Shown here piece by piece: positions 3,246-13,649 of a stretch of 64,000 nucleotides of DNA (within the stretch, counting starts at the first letter, position 1; each line of letters begins with the position of its first letter). The notes beneath the pieces were generated by a model that was not told the origin of the DNA, did no database searches, and saw nothing but the letters and a program-made list of their open reading frames with translations. This DNA comes from Thermopolyspora flexuosa (GTDB lineage Bacteria; Actinomycetota; Actinomycetes; Streptosporangiales; Streptosporangiaceae), in contig NZ_VFPQ01000001.1 of assembly GCF_006716785.1 (NCBI RefSeq), positions 2,418,001 to 2,482,000 of the forward strand, written 5' to 3'. The position numbers were made by a program, and so were the translations under genes.

Positions 3246-4091
3246 ATGCTGCGTATCGCCGTACCGAACAAGGGGGCCCTGACCGAGGGGGCGCAGACGA
3301 TCCTCGCCGAGGCCGGCTACCGCCGCCGCAAGGACAGCAAGGAGCTCGTGGTCGTCGACCCGGAGAACTCCTGTGAGCTGTTCTTCCTGCGCCCGCGGGA
3401 CATCGCCGTGTACGTCGGGGAGGGCACCCTGGACGCCGGGATCACCGGCCGGGACATGCTCTACGACTCCGGCGCGCCCGCCGAGGAGGTGATCCCGCTC
3501 GGGTTCGGGCGGTCCACCTTCCGGTTCGCCGCGCCCCCCGGGGCGTTCAAGAGCGTGCACGACCTGCAGGGACAGCGGATCGCCACCTCGTACGCCGGGC
3601 TGCTCGGCAAGTACCTCGCGGACCAGGGCGTGGAGGCCCGGGTGATCAAGCTGGACGGCGCGGTGGAGACCGCGATCCGGCTCGGCGTGGCGGACGCGGT
3701 CGCCGACGTGGTGGAGACCGGCGCGACGCTGCGCAACGTCGGCCTGGAGGTGTTCGGCGAGCCGATCGCCGAGTCCGAGGCGGTCCTCATCAAGCGGGCC
3801 GGGGCGGCCGAGGACAACGGCTTCCGCCAGCTCATCCGGCGCCTGCAGGGCGTGATCGTCGCCCGCGACTACGTGATGATCGACTACGACATCCGGGTGG
3901 AGCGCATCGACGAGGCGATCGCGATCACGCCCGGCATGGAGGGGCCCACGGTCTCGCCGCTGCACCGCGAGGGCTGGGTCGCGGTCCGCGCCATGATCCC
4001 GCGCAAGGGCCACCAGCAGGTCATGGACGAGCTGTGGGAGATCGGCGCCCGGGCGATCCTCATCACCGACATCTACGCCTGCCGGCTCTGA
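3246..4091 (+). CDS. hisG: ATP phosphoribosyltransferase, long form
   Basis: 281-aa enzyme that condenses ATP with PRPP, the committed and feedback-inhibited step of histidine synthesis. MLRIAVPNKGALTEGAQTIL opens the catalytic domain; the PRPP loop is around DAVADVVETGATLRNVGLEV (about 155-175). Residues from about 210 on (GMEGPTVSPLHREGWVAVRAMIP...) form the ACT-like C-terminal regulatory domain, so this is the self-sufficient long form and needs no HisZ. GGAGACC upstream supports the ATG. The last 29 bases overlap the convergent EAL/CBS gene. Confidence 0.96.
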   Translation: MLRIAVPNKGALTEGAQTILAEAGYRRRKDSKELVVVDPENSCELFFLRPRDIAVYVGEGTLDAGITGRDMLYDSGAPAEEVIPLGFGRSTFRFAAPPGAFKSVHDLQGQRIATSYAGLLGKYLADQGVEARVIKLDGAVETAIRLGVADAVADVVETGATLRNVGLEVFGEPIAESEAVLIKRAGAAEDNGFRQLIRRLQGVIVARDYVMIDYDIRVERIDEAIAITPGMEGPTVSPLHREGWVAVRAMIPRKGHQQVMDELWEIGARAILITDIYACRL

Positions 4092-5619
4092 CCGGGCGCC
4101 TGCCGGCCCTGGTCAGGGGCCGGACAACGGAATCTACTTTTGTAAAGGGCGTGGCCGGGCGCGCCGCGGCCCCGGCGTCCGCGACGTACCGGATGAGGTC
4201 GCTGACGTGCACCACGCCCATGCAGCGGCCGACCTCGTCGACGACCACGAGGTCGTCGTAGACCCGGCCGTCGTCCCGCCCGGCCACGTGCATCGCGGTG
4301 AGCACCGGCGTGGTCCGGGGCACGACCCGGGGCGGATCGGCGAGCCGTACCGCGGGCTTCCTGGCGTACAGGGCGTGCCCGAACCGGGTCGCGATGGTGA
4401 GCAGGAAGCGGCCGCGGTCGACGGTGGCGCGGGGACGCTGGTACTCGTCGACGAGCACGACCCCGGTGATCGACGGCTCGGTGCCGAGCGCGTCGACGAC
4501 CTCCTCCGCCGTCACGTCCTCGGGCAGGGTCACCGCGGGCATGAGGAACTCCTGCACCCGCGGCCCGAGATCGACGGCGGCGGGCGGCTCCTCGGGCAGC
4601 GGGAGCGGCACCCGCGGCCTGCCGTGCGCGGGACGCCAGCCGGGCGGGGCGAGCAGCGGCCCCTGGGCGAGCCGTACGCCCCACCTGCGCAGGGCGGCGA
4701 GCTGCGCCTCCTCGCGCACGGCCGGCGCGACCAGGTGCGCGCCCACGCTGCGCGCGGTGGCGCCGAGCGCCTCCACCAGGCCGCTGCGCCGGTGGTCGTG
4801 CGGGATGCGGGTGATCAGGTCGGGGGAGAGCACGAGCACGTACGGCGAGGCGTCGGCGATCAGGTCGAGCGGCACGCCGGAGGCGCCGAAGTCGCCGAAC
4901 GCGATCAGGTAGCCGATGGCGCGCAGCCCGTCGACGCCGGTGAGCAGCGCGCGCCGGTCGGTCTCGTCGAACCCGCCGCGGATGACGAGCGTCACCTCGC
5001 CGGGCCGCCGCCCGGTGACCCGCAGCGCCTCGTGCAGCGGGGCGAGCGTGGCCGAGCCGCCGATGACCGCGGCGACCGGGATCGAGATCAGCAGCGGGAG
5101 CGGGGCCTCGGCGCGGGCCGCGCCGTGCACCGCGTCGACGGTGGCGCTGAGGCCGATGACGGTGACGTCCCCGGCGTCGGCCTCGACGGCGAGCACGCCG
5201 CCGGTGTCGAGGTCGACGACGGGCAGGAACGCGACGGAGCGGCGCGGGGAGGTGCCGGAGGCCGGCCTGCGTGACGGCGGCGGGGCGAACTCCGTGGTGC
5301 CGGACGCCGGGCGGGTGGCGGGCGCCGGGGTGCCGCCGTGGCCCGCGGCCCGCCACGCGGGCAGCGGAGGCGGCGGTACGGCGGGCGGCGGCACGGTGGG
5401 CGGACCCGAGGGCGCCGTGGCCGGGCCGGGGGAGGGAGGCCGCGGAGGCGCGCCGGGTGGCGCGGGCGCGGCCGGGGACGGCGGTACCGGGGCAGGCGTG
5501 GCCGCAGCGCCGGACGCGGTCGGGGCGTCCGCGGGCGGGGCGGAGAGCGGAGGAACGGGCGCCTGCGGGTGCGCGGGCGCGGCGTGGCGCGCCGGATCGG
5601 AGGCGGCGGAGGAAGTCAT
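4063..5619 (-). CDS. Degenerate EAL-domain protein with C-terminal CBS-like region
   Basis: 518-aa protein. Residues 1-130 are proline/alanine-rich and probably disordered. From about 140 an EAL-type phosphodiesterase fold is recognisable (FLPVVDLDTGGVLAVEAD; later GYLIAFGDFGASGVPLDLI), but the ExLxR signature reads AVEAD with the following segment shortened, and the metal-binding DDFG reads GDFG, so cyclic-di-GMP hydrolysis is unlikely. The C-terminal 160 residues (VTAEEVVDALGTEPSITGVVLVDE...DDLVVVDEVGRCMGVVHVSDLIRYV) resemble the CBS-like region that follows EAL domains in several actinobacteria. Probably a ligand-sensing or scaffold protein. The ATG at 5619 is chosen because the sequence before it is not protein-like. 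Convergent with hisG. Confidence 0.7.
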   Translation of the reverse strand: MTSSAASDPARHAAPAHPQAPVPPLSAPPADAPTASGAAATPAPVPPSPAAPAPPGAPPRPPSPGPATAPSGPPTVPPPAVPPPPLPAWRAAGHGGTPAPATRPASGTTEFAPPPSRRPASGTSPRRSVAFLPVVDLDTGGVLAVEADAGDVTVIGLSATVDAVHGAARAEAPLPLLISIPVAAVIGGSATLAPLHEALRVTGRRPGEVTLVIRGGFDETDRRALLTGVDGLRAIGYLIAFGDFGASGVPLDLIADASPYVLVLSPDLITRIPHDHRRSGLVEALGATARSVGAHLVAPAVREEAQLAALRRWGVRLAQGPLLAPPGWRPAHGRPRVPLPLPEEPPAAVDLGPRVQEFLMPAVTLPEDVTAEEVVDALGTEPSITGVVLVDEYQRPRATVDRGRFLLTIATRFGHALYARKPAVRLADPPRVVPRTTPVLTAMHVAGRDDGRVYDDLVVVDEVGRCMGVVHVSDLIRYVADAGAAARPATPFTKVDSVVRPLTRAGRRPVRAGRRRCR

Positions 5620-5927
5620 CGGCCTGTGACCTGGTCGGTGGGCTGGGGGAGAGCGGGCAATGTACCGACTGGCCCTGATTTTGCCGATCTGTGAACCGGT
5701 TTCCCGGTGCCGCATGAAGAATTCACGGACTGTTCGGAGACCCGCTCTCTTTCGTTTCCGCCGCGCCGTCCGGGCCGGTGTCCTCGCAGGTCGGCGACGT
5801 TCGGGCGGGACCTGCGGATACGTGCCGCGCGCCGCCGGGAGCGGGCCGGCGGGCCGCGCATCGGCCGTTCACCCGGGCACCGGGGGAGCGGACACGCGGC
5901 GTCGGCGGTCCGGCTAGCGTGATGGTC
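5620..5927. other. Divergent intergenic region
   Basis: About 300 bases between two divergent genes. The part from 5660 to 5760 is clearly less GC-rich (for example TTTTGCCGATCTGTGAACCGG and GAAGAATTCACGG) and presumably holds promoters. An 8-bp palindrome AACCGGTT lies around 5695. TAGCGT at 5915-5920 sits 7 bases before the ATG at 5928 and could be the -10 box of a leaderless transcript. No gene recognised. Confidence 0.4.
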
Positions 5928-6695
5928 ATGACCATGCGTCCGGCGGCCGGGGGAGGCCGGTGGGTGGAGGTGGCCCCGGCCCGGCTGCGTCGCTGGCTGG
6001 ACGGCTTCGCGCGGCGCCACGGCAGGCCCGAGGTCACCGCCGTCGGCGGGGGCACGATCGAGATGCTACGGCTCACCGCGCCCGACGGCGCCGTCGCCGA
6101 ATGCCACGTCCCGTTCCCACCCCTCGAACCCGCGCCGGAGGATGCCGGCGCGGCCGCCCCCGGAGCCGGCCACGCGCCTGCCGCACCCGGCGACGCCCCG
6201 GCGAGCCCGCCCCCGGCGGACGCGGGGCCCGGTGGCCCGGATCTCGTCGAGCGGCTGATCGCGCACGCCAACCGGCCCCGCCGGGTGGGCGTGCTCCTGG
6301 TACGGCTCGGCGGCTTCGCCGCGGGCGTCTTCGACGGCGAGCGGCTCGTGGCCTCGAAGGTGGGCGCCCGGCACGTGCAGGGCCGTACCGCCGCCGGTGG
6401 CTGGTCGCAGCAGCGGTTCGCCCGGCGCCGGGAGAAGCAGGCGAACGAGGCGCTGCGCGCGGCGGCCGACGTGGCCGCGCGGGTGCTCGCGCCCCGCCTG
6501 GCGGAGCTGCACGCCGTCGTGCTCGGCGGCGACCGGCGCGCGGTCGACGCGCTGCGCGGCGACCCGCGCCTCGCGGGCGTGTTCGCGCTCGCGGCCCCGC
6601 CGTTCCTCACCGTCCCCGACCCCAAGCTCGCCGTGCTGGAGTCCACCCCGGCGCTGTTCCGGGCGGTGCGCATCCGGGTGCTGGACCCGGACTGA
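5928..6695 (+). CDS. acVLRF1-family peptidyl-tRNA hydrolase (Vms1/eRF1-like release factor)
   Basis: 255-aa protein of the actinobacterial VLRF1 family, related to eukaryotic Vms1 and eRF1, which frees nascent chains from peptidyl-tRNA on stalled large ribosomal subunits. The diagnostic stretch is GRTAAGGWSQQRFARRREKQANEAL: the GGWSQQ loop (157-162) stands in for the eRF1 GGQ, with Q161/Q162 as the likely catalytic glutamine, followed by a basic helix. The C-terminal part (VLGGDRRAVDALRGDP) matches the RNase H-like fold of the family. A proline/alanine-rich insert lies around 70-105. Three in-frame ATGs are clustered at 5922, 5928 and 5934; 5928 is preferred because TAGCGT lies at leaderless distance. 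Confidence 0.82.
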   Translation: MTMRPAAGGGRWVEVAPARLRRWLDGFARRHGRPEVTAVGGGTIEMLRLTAPDGAVAECHVPFPPLEPAPEDAGAAAPGAGHAPAAPGDAPASPPPADAGPGGPDLVERLIAHANRPRRVGVLLVRLGGFAAGVFDGERLVASKVGARHVQGRTAAGGWSQQRFARRREKQANEALRAAADVAARVLAPRLAELHAVVLGGDRRAVDALRGDPRLAGVFALAAPPFLTVPDPKLAVLESTPALFRAVRIRVLDPD

Positions 6696-6770
6696 CCTGC
6701 GGTCACGGCCCCACGGCCGTCGGTGACGCGGGCCGTCGTCCCCGCCGCCGGAGTGAAACAGATCACCTGA

Positions 6771-6823
6771 TTATCCTAAAAACCAGTCTGGACAGTAGGA
6801 AAAGTAGGAATTATCGTCGAGGC
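6771..6823 (+). promoter_or_regulatory. AT-rich repeat region upstream of the sulfur-type operon
   Basis: This is the only AT-rich patch between the two genes. It contains TCCTA at 6774-6778 and its complement TAGGA twice, at 6796-6800 and 6805-6809, giving an inverted repeat plus a direct repeat just before the leader ORF. The second TAGGA runs into ATTAT and may form the -10 region. Seen directly; the role as a promoter or operator is inferred from position. Confidence 0.4.
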
Positions 6824-6889
6824 ATGACCTGCCACCCGCGCGTGGCCTGTTGTCCCACGCTCCCGGCACAGGCCCTCGACCGTCGCTGA
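6824..6889 (+). CDS. Cysteine-rich leader peptide (candidate attenuator)
   Basis: A 21-codon ORF, ATG at 6824 with GAGG just upstream, encodes MTCHPRVACCPTLPAQALDRR: three cysteines, two of them adjacent. It precedes a sulfonate-type transporter operon by 174 bases. Cysteine-rich upstream ORFs that sense cysteinyl-tRNA supply by ribosome pausing are known before sulfur genes in actinobacteria; that this one works the same way is inferred from its content and place. A GC-rich hairpin lies downstream at 6937-6963. It is far too short for homology to decide. Confidence 0.55.
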   Translation: MTCHPRVACCPTLPAQALDRR

Positions 6890-6936
6890 CCGGCGTCCCC
6901 GGCACCGCACCGGGACCCGCCGCCATTTCTCCCCGC

Positions 6937-6963
6937 GGACGCACAGGGTGGTGCGCCGCGTCC
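6937..6963 (+). promoter_or_regulatory. Hairpin between leader ORF and ssuC-like gene
   Basis: GGACGC at 6937-6942 pairs with GCGTCC at 6958-6963, and an inner GCAC/GTGC pair competes for part of the arm, so two alternative foldings exist. Placed 48 bases after the leader ORF stop, it could be an attenuator or a translation-control element; this is inference. Confidence 0.35.
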
Positions 6964-7063
6964 TCAGACCCCTGTCCTCAAGCCGCTTCGTGTGCCGTGC
7001 ACCCGGCCCGGTGCCCACCGGGCGGGCCGACCGGCCGTCCCTTCCGTCAAGGAGCCGTCCTCG

Positions 7064-7906
7064 ATGTCATCACCCGCCGTCACCTCCGGCGTGCCCGCCG
7101 ACCTGATCCGCGGGGCGCCGCCGACGTCACCGGCCCGGCTGCTCGCGGCCGCCGCCGCCCGCGGCCGCCGCCTCGTCGGCCTCGCCGTCCTGCTCGTCGC
7201 CTGGCAGGTCTGCGCCTCCCAGGGGCTGCTCGGCGCGGCCACCCCGCCGCCGAGCCAGGTGCTCGCCGCCGGCGCCGAGCTGATCCGGTCCGGGGAGCTC
7301 CCGGTGCACCTGCTCGCCTCGCTGGAACGGGTGGCGAAGGGGCTGTCGCTCGGGCTCACCGCCGGGCTCGTGCTCGGCCTCGCCGCCGGGCTGTTCCGGC
7401 TCGCCGAGGACGTGATCGACGCCCCGCTACAGGCGCTGCGCATGCTGCCGCACCTCGCGCTCGTCCCGGTGTTCATCATCTGGTTCGGCATCGGCGAGAC
7501 CGCCAAGGTCGCGCTCATCACGATCGGCCCGATCTTCCCGCTCTACATCAACGTCTTCCACGGCATCCGCGGCGTGGACGAGCGGCTGGTGGAGTCGGCC
7601 CGCTCCTGCGGGGTGACCGGGCTCGCGCTGGTCCGCAAGGTGATCCTGCCCGGCGCGCTGCCGCAGATCCTCGTCGGCCTGCGCCAGTCGCTCGGCATCG
7701 GCTGGCTGAGCCTCGTGGTCGCCGAGATGACCGCCACCACCTCGGGGATCGGCTTCCTCGTCACCGACGCCAAGGAGTTCCTCCGCACCGACGTGGTCTT
7801 CGTGGTGCTCGTCGTGTACGCCCTGCTCGGGCTCGCGACCGACCTGCTGGTACGGGCGATCGAGCGCAAGGCGCTCGCCTGGCGGCGGGGGCTGGTGGCC
7901 CGATGA
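7064..7906 (+). CDS. ssuC: Sulfonate/nitrate/taurine-type ABC transporter permease
   Basis: 280-aa membrane protein of the SsuC/TauC/NrtB permease family, moving a small organic sulfur anion (substrate inferred) across the membrane. About six membrane helices are visible, starting RRLVGLAVLLVAWQVCASQGLL. The ATPase-docking EAA loop is VESARSCGVTGLALVRKVILPGALPQILVGLRQSLGIGW. AAGGAG at 7049-7054 supports the ATG. First large gene of a five-gene unit; its stop overlaps the next start as ATGA. The cysteine leader ORF upstream suggests control by sulfur supply. Nitrate or thiamine-precursor transport are alternatives for this family, but the leader and redox partners favour sulfur. Confidence 0.85.
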   Translation: MSSPAVTSGVPADLIRGAPPTSPARLLAAAAARGRRLVGLAVLLVAWQVCASQGLLGAATPPPSQVLAAGAELIRSGELPVHLLASLERVAKGLSLGLTAGLVLGLAAGLFRLAEDVIDAPLQALRMLPHLALVPVFIIWFGIGETAKVALITIGPIFPLYINVFHGIRGVDERLVESARSCGVTGLALVRKVILPGALPQILVGLRQSLGIGWLSLVVAEMTATTSGIGFLVTDAKEFLRTDVVFVVLVVYALLGLATDLLVRAIERKALAWRRGLVAR

Positions 7907-8745
7907 CCGACACGACCGTCACGGTGCCGACGGCGGCCCCGCCCGCCACCGCGCGGGGCGTGCGGGTACGCGGCCTGCGGCGCGCGTTCGGCGACCGGGA
8001 GGTGCTGCGCGGCGTGGACCTCGACCTCGCGCCCGGCGAGTTCGTCGCGCTGCTCGGCGCGAGCGGCTCGGGCAAGAGCACCCTGCTGCGCGCCGTCGCG
8101 GGCCTGGACACCGAGGCCACCGGCGAGCTCGACGTGCCCGAGCGGCGGGCCGTGGTCTTCCAGGAGCACCGCCTGCTGCCGTGGACCCGGGTGTGGCGGA
8201 ACGTCACGCTCGGCCTGACCGGCCGCGACCTGCGGGCCCGCGCCCTGCAAGCCCTGGAGGAGGTCGGGCTCGCCGCCCGCGCGGACGCCTGGCCGAGCAC
8301 CCTGTCCGGCGGCGAGTCCCAGCGCGTCGCCCTCGCCCGGGCCCTCGTCCGCACCCCCGAGCTGCTCCTCCTCGACGAGCCGTTCGGCGCGCTCGACGCG
8401 CTCACCCGGCTCAAGGCGCAGGGCCTCGTCGCCCGCCTGTGGCAGCGCCACCGGCCCGCCGTACTGCTCGTCACCCACGACGTGGAGGAGGCGCTGCTGC
8501 TGGCCGACCGGGCGCTCGTGCTCGCCGACGGGCGCATCGCCGAGGAGTTCGCCGTCGACATCGAACGGCCCCGGCCGGTCGACCACCCCCGCTTCACCGC
8601 CCTGCGCCGCCGGCTGCTCGCCGCCCTCGGCGTCGGCCCCGACCTCGGCGACCCACAGGACCACGCATCCCACGCCCACACGATCCCGCACCACACCCCA
8701 CAGGACGACCCACAGGACGACGCCGCACGGCAGGAGACACGATGA
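7903..8745 (+). CDS. ssuB: Sulfonate-type ABC transporter ATPase
   Basis: 280-aa nucleotide-binding subunit that powers the importer. Walker A GASGSGKST at 52-60, Q-loop VVFQEHRLLPW, signature LSGGESQRVALARAL, Walker B LLLDEPFGALD and switch histidine in LLVTHDVEEALLLADRALVL are all intact. The last 40 residues form a histidine- and aspartate-rich tail (DPQDHASHAHTIPHHTPQDD) unlike usual SsuB ends, of unknown role, possibly metal-binding. Overlaps both neighbours by ATGA, so translational coupling is expected. Confidence 0.9.
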   Translation: MTDTTVTVPTAAPPATARGVRVRGLRRAFGDREVLRGVDLDLAPGEFVALLGASGSGKSTLLRAVAGLDTEATGELDVPERRAVVFQEHRLLPWTRVWRNVTLGLTGRDLRARALQALEEVGLAARADAWPSTLSGGESQRVALARALVRTPELLLLDEPFGALDALTRLKAQGLVARLWQRHRPAVLLVTHDVEEALLLADRALVLADGRIAEEFAVDIERPRPVDHPRFTALRRRLLAALGVGPDLGDPQDHASHAHTIPHHTPQDDPQDDAARQETR

Positions 8746-10394
8746 CCCGACCCCTGGAACTCACCACCGACGTCCTCGTCATCGGCGGCGGCCCCGCCGC
8801 CACCTGGGCCGCGCTGAAGGCCGCCCAGGCGGGGGCGGACGTCGTCCTCGCCGACAAGGGCTACTGCGGCACCAGCGGCGCGGCCGCCTCCGCCGGGACC
8901 GGCATCTGGTACGTCGAGCCGGACCCCGAGGCCCGGGAGAAGGCGATGGCCTCCCGCGAGGCGCTCGGCGGCTACCTCGCCGACCGGCGCTGGATGGTCC
9001 GGGTGCTCGACCAGACCTACGCGGGGGTCAACGAGCTCGCCACCGCCGGTCGCTACCCGTTCCCGATCGTGGACGGCCGCCCGCTGCGCCGCGGCGTGCA
9101 GGGGCCCGAGTACATGCGCCGGATGCGCATCCTGGTACGGCGGGCCGGGGTGCGCATACTCGACCACAGCCCGGTCACCGAGCTGCTGGTGGCCGCGGAC
9201 GGCTCGGTGGCGGGCGCGGCCGGGCACCGGCTGCAGACGGACGAGCCGTACCGGGTGCGCGCGGCCGCGGTGGTGCTCGCCACCGGCGGGTGCGCGTTCC
9301 TGTCCGGCACGCTCGGCTGCCACGTCAACACCGGGGACGGCCACCTGATGGCCGCCGAGCTCGGCGCCGAGCTGTCCGGCATGGAGTTCTCCAACGCCTA
9401 CGCGATCGCCCCCGAGTTCACCACGCTCACCAAGACCGCCTACTACTCGTTCGCCACCTTCTACCGCGAGGACGGCTCGGTGCTCGAGGGCGCGGGCAGC
9501 ACCCGCGGCCGCTCGGTGATCGCCCGCGCGCTGCTGCGCGAGAAGGTGTACTGCGTGCTCGACCGGGCCGACGCCGAGACCCAGGCGAAGATGCGGCTCG
9601 GCCAGCCGAACTTCTTCCTCACCTTCGACCGGCTCGGCATCGACCCGTTCACCCAGCGCTTCCCGATCACGCTGCTGCTCGAGGGCACGGTGCGCGGCAC
9701 CGGCGGCATCCGCGTGGTCTCCGAGGACTGCGCCACCTCGGTCCCCGGCCTGTACGTCGCGGGCGACGCGGCCACCCGCGAGCTGATCTGCGGCGGGTTC
9801 ACCGGCGGCGGCAGCCACAACGCGGCGTGGGCGATCGCCTCCGGCGCCTGGGCCGGCCAGGGCGCGGCCCGGTACGCCGCCTCGCTCGGCCCCGCCGCCA
9901 ACCGGCGGCCCGCGACCGGCGCGGGCGGGGCGGGGCTGCGGCCCACCGGCGCCCCGGACCGGAACCTCGGGCACCGCGACGTGGTCGCCGCGGTGCAGGC
10001 CGAGGTGCTGCCGTACGACAAGAACTACCTGCGGCACGGGGACCGGCTCACCCCGGCGCTGGAGGCGCTGCACGGCGTGTGGCGCGAGGTGCGCGCCGGC
10101 CTGCACGGCACGGGCGCCGACGCGGTGCGCACCCGCCAGGCCGCGGCGATGACCGCGCACGCCCGGTGGATGTACACCGCGGCGCTGGCCCGCACCGAGT
10201 CGCGCGGCATGCACAAGCGCGAGGACTACCCGGACCAGGACCCGGCCTGGCGGCACCGGCTGCTCGTCGGCGGGCTCGACGAGCCGTGGACCCGGCCGGA
10301 CGAGGTCGCCCCGGTGGGGCCGGAGGAGTTCGCCGCGCTCGGCTCGCCCGGCCTCGCCGGCACCTCCGGCGCGTACCTGCGGGCGGCGTCATGA
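8742..10394 (+). CDS. AprA-like FAD-dependent oxidoreductase
   Basis: 550-aa flavoprotein of the fumarate reductase/succinate dehydrogenase/adenylylsulfate reductase superfamily. The FAD site opens as VLVIGGGPAATWAALKAA (12-30) and closes with VPGLYVAGDAATRELICGGFTGGG near 335-355. The helical C-terminal region with LARTESRGMHKREDYPDQDPAW matches the RTESRG segment of this family, seen also in AprA. Its partner is the next gene, a dicluster ferredoxin, as AprA pairs with AprB. No signal peptide. Being sandwiched between transporter subunits and their binding protein, it probably transforms the imported compound; the reaction is unknown. A true APS reductase is less likely because no sulfate-reduction genes accompany it. 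Confidence 0.75.
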   Translation: MTRPLELTTDVLVIGGGPAATWAALKAAQAGADVVLADKGYCGTSGAAASAGTGIWYVEPDPEAREKAMASREALGGYLADRRWMVRVLDQTYAGVNELATAGRYPFPIVDGRPLRRGVQGPEYMRRMRILVRRAGVRILDHSPVTELLVAADGSVAGAAGHRLQTDEPYRVRAAAVVLATGGCAFLSGTLGCHVNTGDGHLMAAELGAELSGMEFSNAYAIAPEFTTLTKTAYYSFATFYREDGSVLEGAGSTRGRSVIARALLREKVYCVLDRADAETQAKMRLGQPNFFLTFDRLGIDPFTQRFPITLLLEGTVRGTGGIRVVSEDCATSVPGLYVAGDAATRELICGGFTGGGSHNAAWAIASGAWAGQGAARYAASLGPAANRRPATGAGGAGLRPTGAPDRNLGHRDVVAAVQAEVLPYDKNYLRHGDRLTPALEALHGVWREVRAGLHGTGADAVRTRQAAAMTAHARWMYTAALARTESRGMHKREDYPDQDPAWRHRLLVGGLDEPWTRPDEVAPVGPEEFAALGSPGLAGTSGAYLRAAS

Positions 10395-10810
10395 TCGAGA
10401 TCGTCTCCCGGGAGCGGTGCATCGCCTGCGACCGCTGCGTCGAGGTCTGCCCGCGGAACGTGTTCGATCGGGGCGCGGACGGCGTGCCGGTGATCGCCCG
10501 CCAGGCCGACTGCCAGACCTGCTTCATGTGCGAGGCCTACTGCCCGGCCGACGCGCTGTTCGTCGCACCGCTCGCGCACCCGGCGCGGCCGGACTCCCCG
10601 CTGCGCGACGAGGACCGCCTCGCCGCCGCAGGGCTGCTCGGCAGCTACCGCCGCGAGATCGGCTGGGGGCGGGGCCGTACCCCGGGCGCGAGGTTCGCGG
10701 TCGGGCCCGAGCTCCCGGCCACACCGCCGCCGATCGTCACCACGGTCACCACCCGGACCGAGATCGGCGAAGGAATCGGAGACACGATCAGCGAAGAGGT
10801 GACGAGATGA
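10391..10810 (+). CDS. AprB-like ferredoxin with two [4Fe-4S] clusters
   Basis: 139-aa protein. Two cluster motifs are complete: CIACDRCVEVCP at about 10-21 and CQTCFMCEAYCP at about 41-52, together binding two [4Fe-4S] centres. A cysteine-free tail of roughly 85 residues follows, comparable to the AprB tail that embraces AprA, so it is probably the electron-carrying subunit of the preceding flavoprotein. ATGA overlaps on both sides give tight coupling with the flavoprotein and the binding protein. The acceptor or donor beyond it is not evident in this window. Confidence 0.8.
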   Translation: MIEIVSRERCIACDRCVEVCPRNVFDRGADGVPVIARQADCQTCFMCEAYCPADALFVAPLAHPARPDSPLRDEDRLAAAGLLGSYRREIGWGRGRTPGARFAVGPELPATPPPIVTTVTTRTEIGEGIGDTISEEVTR

Positions 10811-11814
10811 GGCTCCGCCGATCCCCCGCCGCGGTCGCGGCGGCGGTCGCCGCCCTGGTGGTCGCGCTCGCCGGGACGCTCACCGGATGCGGCACGGGCG
10901 AGCGGGCCGCCGCCGACGGCGGGAATGAAAGATTCACGCTGCGGATCGGGGTGATCGGCAGCGGGAACCGGCTCACCGGCCCGGTCGGATACCTGCACGA
11001 CCGGAACGCGCTGGTACCGCTGCTCGCCGAGGCCGGGGTGGCGGACATCACGGTGCACACCTTCCCCAACGGGCCCGACCTCAACCAGGCGCTCGTCGCC
11101 GGTGAGCTCGACCTCGCCACGTACGGCGACACGCCCGCGCTCGTCGCCCGCGGCGCGGGACAGCCCACCCGGCTCATCGCCCAGGCCCAGGTCGGCATGG
11201 ACGCGGGCATCGTGGCCAAGAAGCAGGGCGGGCCGCGCTCGCTGCAGGAGCTCGCCGGGCGCCGGATCGCCACGCAGACCGGCTCGTACATGCACCGCTA
11301 CCTGCTCGGCGCGCTGTCCGACGCGAAGGTGACGCCGAAGGAGATCGTGCACATCTACAGCTCCGACGTGGAGGCGGCGCTGGAGCGCGGCGACGTGGAC
11401 GCGGCCGCGGTCCCGGCGGCGAACGTCGAGGCGCTGCGCGCCAAGGGCTACCCGGTGATCGACTCGCTCGCCGAGGACCACCCCGCCTACCGGGGCACCT
11501 CGGCCACCGTGGTCACCGACGCGTTCCTCGAGGCGCGGCCCGGCTTCGTCAAGGTCTGGCAGGCGGCCCAGGTCGAGGCCACCCGGCGGGCCAAGGCGAA
11601 CTGGGACGACTACCTGTCGTTCGCGGTCAAGGTCGGCGGCTTCCCGCCGGAGATCGTGCGCAGGACCACGCTGGCCGAGCAGCTGCCGGACACGCCGTTC
11701 ACCGAGGAGGGCCTGACCCTGCTCGAGGGCACCAAGCGGTTCCTCGTGGAGCAGGGGTTCGTGCGCAGGGACTTCGCCATCGACGACTGGATCGCCCCCG
11801 GCGCGCGCGGCTGA
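10807..11814 (+). CDS. ABC transporter substrate-binding lipoprotein, SsuA/TauA type
   Basis: 335-aa lipoprotein. The signal segment ends in a lipobox LTGC with C28 as the lipidated residue. The mature part (LRIGVIGSGNR..., GELDLATYGDTPALVARGAGQPTRLIAQ, SLQELAGRRIATQTGSYMHRYLLGAL) matches the periplasmic-binding fold of aliphatic sulfonate/taurine/nitrate receptors. It is the last gene of the unit, joined by ATGA to the ferredoxin gene; placing the receptor at the 3' end after two enzyme genes is unusual. A strong terminator follows 16 bases after the stop. Confidence 0.85.
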   Translation: MRLRRSPAAVAAAVAALVVALAGTLTGCGTGERAAADGGNERFTLRIGVIGSGNRLTGPVGYLHDRNALVPLLAEAGVADITVHTFPNGPDLNQALVAGELDLATYGDTPALVARGAGQPTRLIAQAQVGMDAGIVAKKQGGPRSLQELAGRRIATQTGSYMHRYLLGALSDAKVTPKEIVHIYSSDVEAALERGDVDAAAVPAANVEALRAKGYPVIDSLAEDHPAYRGTSATVVTDAFLEARPGFVKVWQAAQVEATRRAKANWDDYLSFAVKVGGFPPEIVRRTTLAEQLPDTPFTEEGLTLLEGTKRFLVEQGFVRRDFAIDDWIAPGARG

Positions 11815-11830
11815 CCGCGGGCGACCGGCC

Positions 11831-11866
11831 ACGACCCCGCGGGGACGGGCGTCCCCGCGGGGTCGT
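11831..11866 (+). terminator. Strong terminator of the sulfur-type operon
   Basis: Perfect 16-bp inverted repeat: ACGACCCCGCGGGGAC (11831-11846), loop GGGC, then its exact complement (11851-11866), 16 bases after the binding-protein stop. No U tract follows. Confidence 0.85.
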
Positions 11867-12050
11867 GCGCGTTCCTCCCCGGTGCCACCCCGCCCACCCG
11901 GCCGCGGAGGCCGCCGCGCGGCGCGCGCCGCTCGCGGTGCGTCCCGGGCCGTACACTGATCGGTATGCGCACTCCCGACTGACCGCCGGCGTCCCCTCGT
12001 CCCCCTATGCCGTCCCCGCCTTTTCCCCTCGCCCGGGAGTGTCCACCGTC

Positions 12051-13649
<1,599 letters not shown>

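Follow-up and report, generated by a model that had tools for sequence, protein, structure and literature searches.

What does a bacterial sulfur-compound importer do with a flavoprotein and a ferredoxin encoded in its own operon, and which enzyme acts on the compound that is taken up? This question is raised by a five-gene operon (positions 7064-11814) in a stretch of 64,000 nucleotides from Thermopolyspora flexuosa (NZ_VFPQ01000001.1), hereafter referred to as the window. The operon is real, an ordinary further member of the already known Asf kind. We lean towards the view that it represents an Asf-type sulfonate scavenging module, in which AsfAB supports oxygen-dependent carbon–sulfur (C–S) cleavage by a monooxygenase encoded elsewhere. 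The operon comprises the following genes:

7064..7906, + strand: SsuC-like ATP-binding cassette (ABC) permease (NCBIfam NF008470, 231 bits, cut-off 347; Pfam PF00528)
7903..8745, + strand: SsuB-like ABC ATPase (NCBIfam NF008420, 247 bits, cut-off 395; PF00005)
8742..10394, + strand: AsfA, a flavoprotein of the complex II superfamily (match to CH34 AsfA; tree; fold)
10391..10810, + strand: AsfB, a 2x[4Fe-4S] ferredoxin with a C-terminal extension (match to CH34 AsfB; Pfam Fer4)
10807..11814, + strand: SsuA/NMT1-type lipoprotein receptor (TIGR01728, 126 bits, cut-off 163.5; PF09084; lipobox)

ATGA overlaps at 7903, 8742, 10391, and 10807 join all five genes, and both the genes and the four overlaps lie where an earlier reading, made from the sequence alone (the sequence-only reading), had placed them. 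As read from the sequence, the ferredoxin carries the motif CxxCxxCxxxCP twice and the receptor has the lipobox LTGC. In the NCBIfam scan, SsuC and SsuB were the top-scoring models for permease and ATPase, both under their equivalog cut-offs, and the best match of each of the five proteins remained below the curated cut-off. Strict SsuABC identity was rejected on the scores of SsuB (247/395 bits) and SsuC (231/347 bits). Gene layout and NCBIfam/Pfam scans revealed no SsuD, TauD, or SsuE gene in the five-gene operon, in line with the earlier statement that it holds no SsuD or TauD oxygenase.

The flavoprotein was compared to plasmid records (PLSDB) by tblastn, yielding 59 records at ≥80% coverage. 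These included the Cupriavidus metallidurans CH34 megaplasmid, in which AsfA matched at one place only. This megaplasmid open reading frame (ORF) shares 62% identity (319/516 amino acids) with the window AsfA; 57% identity (54/95 amino acids) was found between the window AsfB and the CH34 ferredoxin, whose ORF overlaps the preceding AsfA ORF by 4 bases. According to the CH34 genome paper, asfRAB lies on that replicon, Rmet_4334/5 are the "reductase-ferredoxin AsfA/AsfB", and the organism uses aromatic sulfonates. As the PLSDB record is unannotated at that place, the matched ORF was equated with Rmet_4334 by replicon and uniqueness. In Pseudomonas putida S-313, asfA is described as required on aromatic sulfonates, since transposon mutants lost the use of these compounds and kept that of aliphatic sulfonates; the asf cluster of this strain comprises a receptor, an ABC transporter, the reductase/ferredoxin, and a LysR regulator (PMC4267179, excerpts). 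Rhodococcus and Williamsia are listed in the literature as aromatic-sulfonate users with asfA. Sequence comparison identifies the window flavoprotein as an orthologue of AsfA and the window ferredoxin as one of AsfB. The proposal that a sulfur-compound importer is tied to a flavoprotein/ferredoxin pair is upheld, the pair being AsfAB, whose asfA these sources link to aromatic sulfonates.

Phylogenetic analysis of AsfA (86 of 125 rows, SH-aLRT (Shimodaira–Hasegawa-like approximate likelihood ratio test) values as sole support, midpoint root) placed the window, Rhodococcus, Williamsia, and Cupriavidus proteins in one family tree, which leaves out two SdhA-like outgroup rows, the genome repeats L129, L132, L133, and L136, and 30 thinned loci, and holds no AprA row. 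The window AsfA groups with those of Nonomuraea, Spongiactinospora, Microbispora, and G466, and falls within a 50-row actinobacterial clade that includes Rhodococcus and Williamsia (SH-aLRT 98). CH34 AsfA belongs to a 13-row clade with Paenibacillus, alphaproteobacterial, and cyanobacterial rows (SH-aLRT 97), and second AsfA copies of actinobacteria lie outside both clades. Grouping of the flavoprotein with an enzyme of known non-sulfur function, the outcome named in advance as speaking against a sulfur role, did not occur.

At a presence threshold of E ≤ 1e-60, AsfA was found in two genomes of a 296-genome sample of the phylum and in 19 of 200 genomes of the family, the window's own genome being counted in both. 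A pattern scan of genome contigs revealed at least 549 relatives among the 597 matches listed; the best 80 were taken for the locus counts, which therefore describe near relatives only, and neighbour genes were called by targeted BLAST. In 77 of these 80 loci asfB adjoins asfA, and some Ssu-type transporter part lies near asfA in 64. The order permease-ATPase-asfA-asfB-receptor, for which a survey had been proposed, recurs in 16/80 loci and is thus not a product of chance. NtaA/DmoA-type monooxygenases are encoded near asfA in 32 loci, TauD-like proteins in 31, and SsuD in six; any of the three was present in 42/80 loci, compared to 0/20 control stretches (17.5 kb, unmatched for genus) from seven genomes of the family to which the window belongs. 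A recurrent neighbourhood, seen in L007 and many Streptomyces/Nocardia loci, has AsfAB beside receptor-ATPase-permease-NtaA/DmoA, often with TauD and sometimes with a major facilitator superfamily gene. AsfA is also carried by Cyanobacteria (L101, L104, L117, L113, and L114 (Nostoc)), some of which have an additional copy for which an adjacent asfB was not found.

Among the 16 loci sharing the five-gene order, nine carry a second asfA-asfB pair downstream of the receptor. This diverged pair follows the receptor directly in L063, L069, L071, L076, L096, L109, L119, L123, and L125, and also in L128, L130, and L131; a similar double pair occurs in Paenibacillus (L008). The T. flexuosa genome encodes one AsfA only. 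Since the nearest relatives of the window have the second pair, and the window and L047 are without it, its loss in the window lineage is the simplest reading.

Suitable oxygenases are encoded elsewhere in the T. flexuosa genome. Two SsuD-like proteins (442 and 438 bits, cut-off 518) are encoded at C1:2004165 and C1:530274, ~0.4 and 1.9 Mb from the operon on the same contig, together with two NtaA/DmoA matches over the cut-off and one TauD. The SsuD-like gene at C1:2004165 lies near SfnG (628 bits, over the cut-off) and an SfnB/DszC-like protein, and the one at C1:530274 has an NtaA/DmoA protein over the cut-off within 8 kb. Grouped in L143 (6285-8806 and 10166-11245; own genome, C1 near 2000 kb), the SfnG, SfnB/DszC-like, and SsuD-like genes form a sulfone/sulfonate scavenging locus. 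The sequence-only reading had suggested an oxygen-independent way of handling the imported compound. This suggestion found no support, given the oxygenases in the genome, the frequent proximity of asfAB loci to oxygenase genes, and the cited literature, which describes an oxygenase-based pathway with an additional need for ssu genes.

Co-occurrence was assessed in the 200 family genomes (19 AsfA-positive and 181 AsfA-negative) by Fisher tests that ignore kinship. SsuD was present in 17/19 AsfA-positive and 112/181 AsfA-negative genomes, NtaA/DmoA in 17/19 and 114/181, and both together in 16/19 and 88/181 (p = 0.003). In a set of 55 AsfA-positive genome entries, 49 contained SsuD at 1e-60; two pairs of entries apparently represent one genome each, leaving at least 53 distinct genomes.

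Upstream of the operon, two features with a possible role in regulation were found:

6789..6817, + strand: promoter-like site TGGACA-17-TATCGT (only such match in 6690-12060; shuffles 0.0 ± 0.2)
6824..6889, + strand: leaderless-looking 21-codon leader ORF with three Cys (translation MTCHPRVACCPTLPAQALDRR)

The ATG of the leader ORF is located seven bases after the −10-like hexamer, which fits leaderless translation. Five related loci (L047, L128, L063, L069, and L134) share the promoter stretch TGGACAGTAGG...GG(A)ATTA, and the closest relative, L047, has a leader ORF of the same length with one Cys. A canonical leader, ...LVARRH(I/V)DLLRVCSA(S/G/R)C, was detected upstream of 10 of 21 distinct related operons, the window among the 21 (25 loci with a permease match, which was missing for L135, minus four genome repeats; L111 and L134 offered <600 bases of upstream sequence). 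One relative's canonical leader reached 27.1 bits with NF042934 (cut-off 27) and 40.9 bits with NF042936 (cut-off 45), and the window leader matched neither of these NCBIfam leader models. No Rfam family scored above its gathering score in the leader region, and no LysR-type activator was found among the scanned neighbours (HisG, acVLRF1, ABC-F, and an enoyl-CoA hydratase-like protein). PMC9094748 cites Canestrari 2020, according to whose title short leaderless Cys ORFs are cysteine-responsive attenuators in mycobacteria. Control of the window operon by cysteine is a plausible possibility.

In the favored reading, the lipoprotein receptor, permease, and ATPase would import a sulfonate, most likely one that is aromatic or that the other systems of the genome do not serve. 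AsfA, binding flavin adenine dinucleotide (FAD), and AsfB, with two 4Fe-4S clusters, would act as a soluble electron-transfer pair and support oxygen-dependent C–S cleavage by a flavin monooxygenase of the SsuD or NtaA/DmoA type encoded elsewhere in the genome. Cleavage would yield sulfite for cysteine synthesis, and the short leader with its Cys codons probably allows expression of the operon at cysteine shortage. Several observations weigh against this scheme. None of the three oxygenase types lies nearby in 38/80 loci, and either SsuD or NtaA/DmoA is not significantly enriched in AsfA-positive family genomes (18/19 vs. 138/181, p = 0.08, kinship ignored). Five of the at least 53 AsfA-positive genomes lack SsuD (best residual matches 60–68 bits), and SsuD is therefore not the sole partner. 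These genomes include Nonomuraea glycinis, Planobispora siamensis, Smaragdicoccus niigatensis, and Anabaena lutea; four of the five contain NtaA/DmoA, and G363, a draft of 960 contigs with 95% completeness, lacks both. Regarding regulation, the number of leader Cys codons varies (three in the window, one in L047, three in L063, one in L069, one in L134, and none in L128; ORFs read by eye). The cysteine leader of the sequence-only reading thus stands as a 21-codon ORF with three Cys upstream of the operon, and is weakened by the poor conservation of these codons among relatives. In the whole genome, the promoter pattern was found at this site only, so that no wider regulon was seen, and the leader region showed neither a terminator nor unusual folding (z 0.46).

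The same module could have another organosulfur compound as its natural substrate, i.e., an alkylsulfonate, sulfone, sulfinate, or sulfate ester instead of an aromatic sulfonate. The receptor under the SsuA-family cut-off (126/163.5 bits), the sulfone genes SfnG and SfnB beside an SsuD-like gene in the own genome, and the NtaA/DmoA-type neighbours of AsfA in 32/80 loci are all in accordance with this idea. However, the only asfA mutant phenotype found in the literature excerpts is the loss of aromatic sulfonates with aliphatic ones kept, and the window AsfA shares 62% identity with that of an aromatic-sulfonate user, which makes a different substrate class unlikely.

A second alternative concerns AsfA itself, for which an AlphaFold2 model was generated from 38 sequences (mean predicted local distance difference test score 82, predicted template modeling score 0.86). 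Y220, K231, R257, T354, and H359 are invariant in these sequences, and so highly conserved a pocket is unlike that of a mere carrier. AsfAB could thus cleave the C–S bond itself: the sulfonate would bind at the AsfA flavin, electrons would arrive via AsfB, and sulfite would be released reductively, independent of oxygen and of any partner oxygenase. An operon without an oxygenase gene, the 38 loci without one nearby, the five SsuD-less genomes, and the architecture common to methanogen PAPS (3'-phosphoadenosine 5'-phosphosulfate) reductase (8a8o), which reduces a sulfur substrate, point in the same direction. Against it stand the oxygenase pathway with its additional need for ssu genes in the literature excerpts, the NtaA/DmoA proteins in four of the five SsuD-less genomes (the fifth being a fragmented draft), and the oxygenase company that asfAB genes keep. 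We consider direct cleavage by AsfAB rather improbable. Equally doubtful is the broader claim of a self-sufficient AsfAB desulfonase that needs no partner monooxygenase, with the window operon as its minimal form of importer and enzyme; if true, the tandem second AsfAB pair of the relatives would be a second enzyme with a different substrate range.

The predicted AsfA fold matches fumarate reductase (Z up to 39), L-aspartate oxidase (36), methanogen PAPS reductase (36), and AprA (30), and a profile search returned SdhA (92 bits), FrdA (74), PAPS reductase alpha (68), L-aspartate oxidase (61), and AprA (41). Top NCBIfam matches were weak (TfrA, L-aspartate oxidase, and SdhA, 84–101 bits vs. cut-offs of 639–819), and the APS (adenosine 5'-phosphosulfate) reductase alpha model NF005331 reached 45 bits (cut-off 557). 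Compared to the six residues that we take to be catalytic in E. coli SdhA (H242, T254, E255, R286, H354, and R399), AsfA keeps two, T254 and R286. H242 is replaced by Y220, E255 by K231, and R399 by F353, all three replacements being invariant in the 38 AsfA sequences, and H354 falls into a gap. Residues 39-56, the region of covalent FAD attachment in SdhA, contain no His in AsfA. With four of six positions changed or gapped and the replacements invariant, AsfA forms, by sequence and model, a separate branch within the complex II superfamily, acting on another substrate or on none at all.

An AprAB-type or PAPS-reductase-type enzyme acting on activated sulfate or sulfite, and not on an organic sulfonate, could draw on the methanogen PAPS reductase, whose alpha subunit aligns with the AsfA profile over the full length (68 bits, positions 3-500) and whose beta subunit is one of the top matches to AsfB. 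In sequence and fold, SdhA, FrdA, and NadB are at least as close, though, AprA being at 41 bits and Z 30, and a sulfonate-type ABC importer is built into the operon; we regard such an activity as very unlikely. AprAB membership was rejected on the scores of AprA (41 bits vs. 92 for SdhA) and NF005331 (45/557). The label "AprAB-like" of the sequence-only reading hence fits the architecture of a flavoprotein with a dicluster ferredoxin, as in 8a8o, and fails for sequence, where AprA is not the nearest relative. That an unusual operon here houses a dicarboxylate enzyme (succinate dehydrogenase, fumarate reductase, or L-aspartate oxidase), as the weak best matches to TfrA, L-aspartate oxidase, and SdhA might suggest, can be practically dismissed given the two of six SdhA residues and the missing His. 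Membership in the succinate dehydrogenases/fumarate reductases was likewise rejected, as only two of the six dicarboxylate-binding residues are kept.

Regarding the surroundings of the operon, the ABC-F protein at 12051-13649 scores 378.8 bits, the ribosomal-protection cut-off being 380. A large ORF on the − strand (4063-5715) appears EAL-type and CBS-like by eye. The tandem repeats of the window have no bearing on the operon.

Sulfonates, aliphatic and aromatic together, make up 30–70% of soil sulfur according to PMC10441942, and asfA is described as the marker gene for aromatic sulfonate use. By modules of the Asf kind, soil bacteria take sulfur from sulfonates, organic acids that contain sulfur, when sulfate is scarce. 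The open-access literature searched yielded no account of the chemical role of AsfAB, and the compact single-pair operon and the SsuD-less genomes provide hosts suited to a direct test of whether SsuD is required.

Compared to known systems, the operon shares the importer family with the SsuABC/SsuD alkanesulfonate system, but has no SsuD or SsuE gene, and its importer scores below the equivalog cut-offs. AprAB and methanogen PAPS reductase resemble AsfAB in pairing a complex II-type flavoprotein with a dicluster ferredoxin, but are not its nearest relatives in sequence. The polycysteine leaderless ORFs and the NF042934/NF042936 families share with the window a short ORF with Cys codons straight after the promoter, and a canonical leader precedes related operons, whereas the window leader fits no leader model and has poorly kept Cys codons. 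The closest likeness is to the asf genes of CH34 and P. putida S-313, with an orthologous pair, an asfB start overlapping asfA, and a linked sulfonate-type ABC importer with receptor. In contrast to both, the window has the importer genes before asfAB in one overlapped unit and the receptor last; in CH34, the importer genes run in the opposite direction. Furthermore, where asfRABC of P. putida S-313 has its LysR gene, none was seen beside the window operon, which has a short Cys-containing leader instead. As it has no LysR neighbour, we file the operon as an AsfAB module and not as a copy of the asfRABC cluster.

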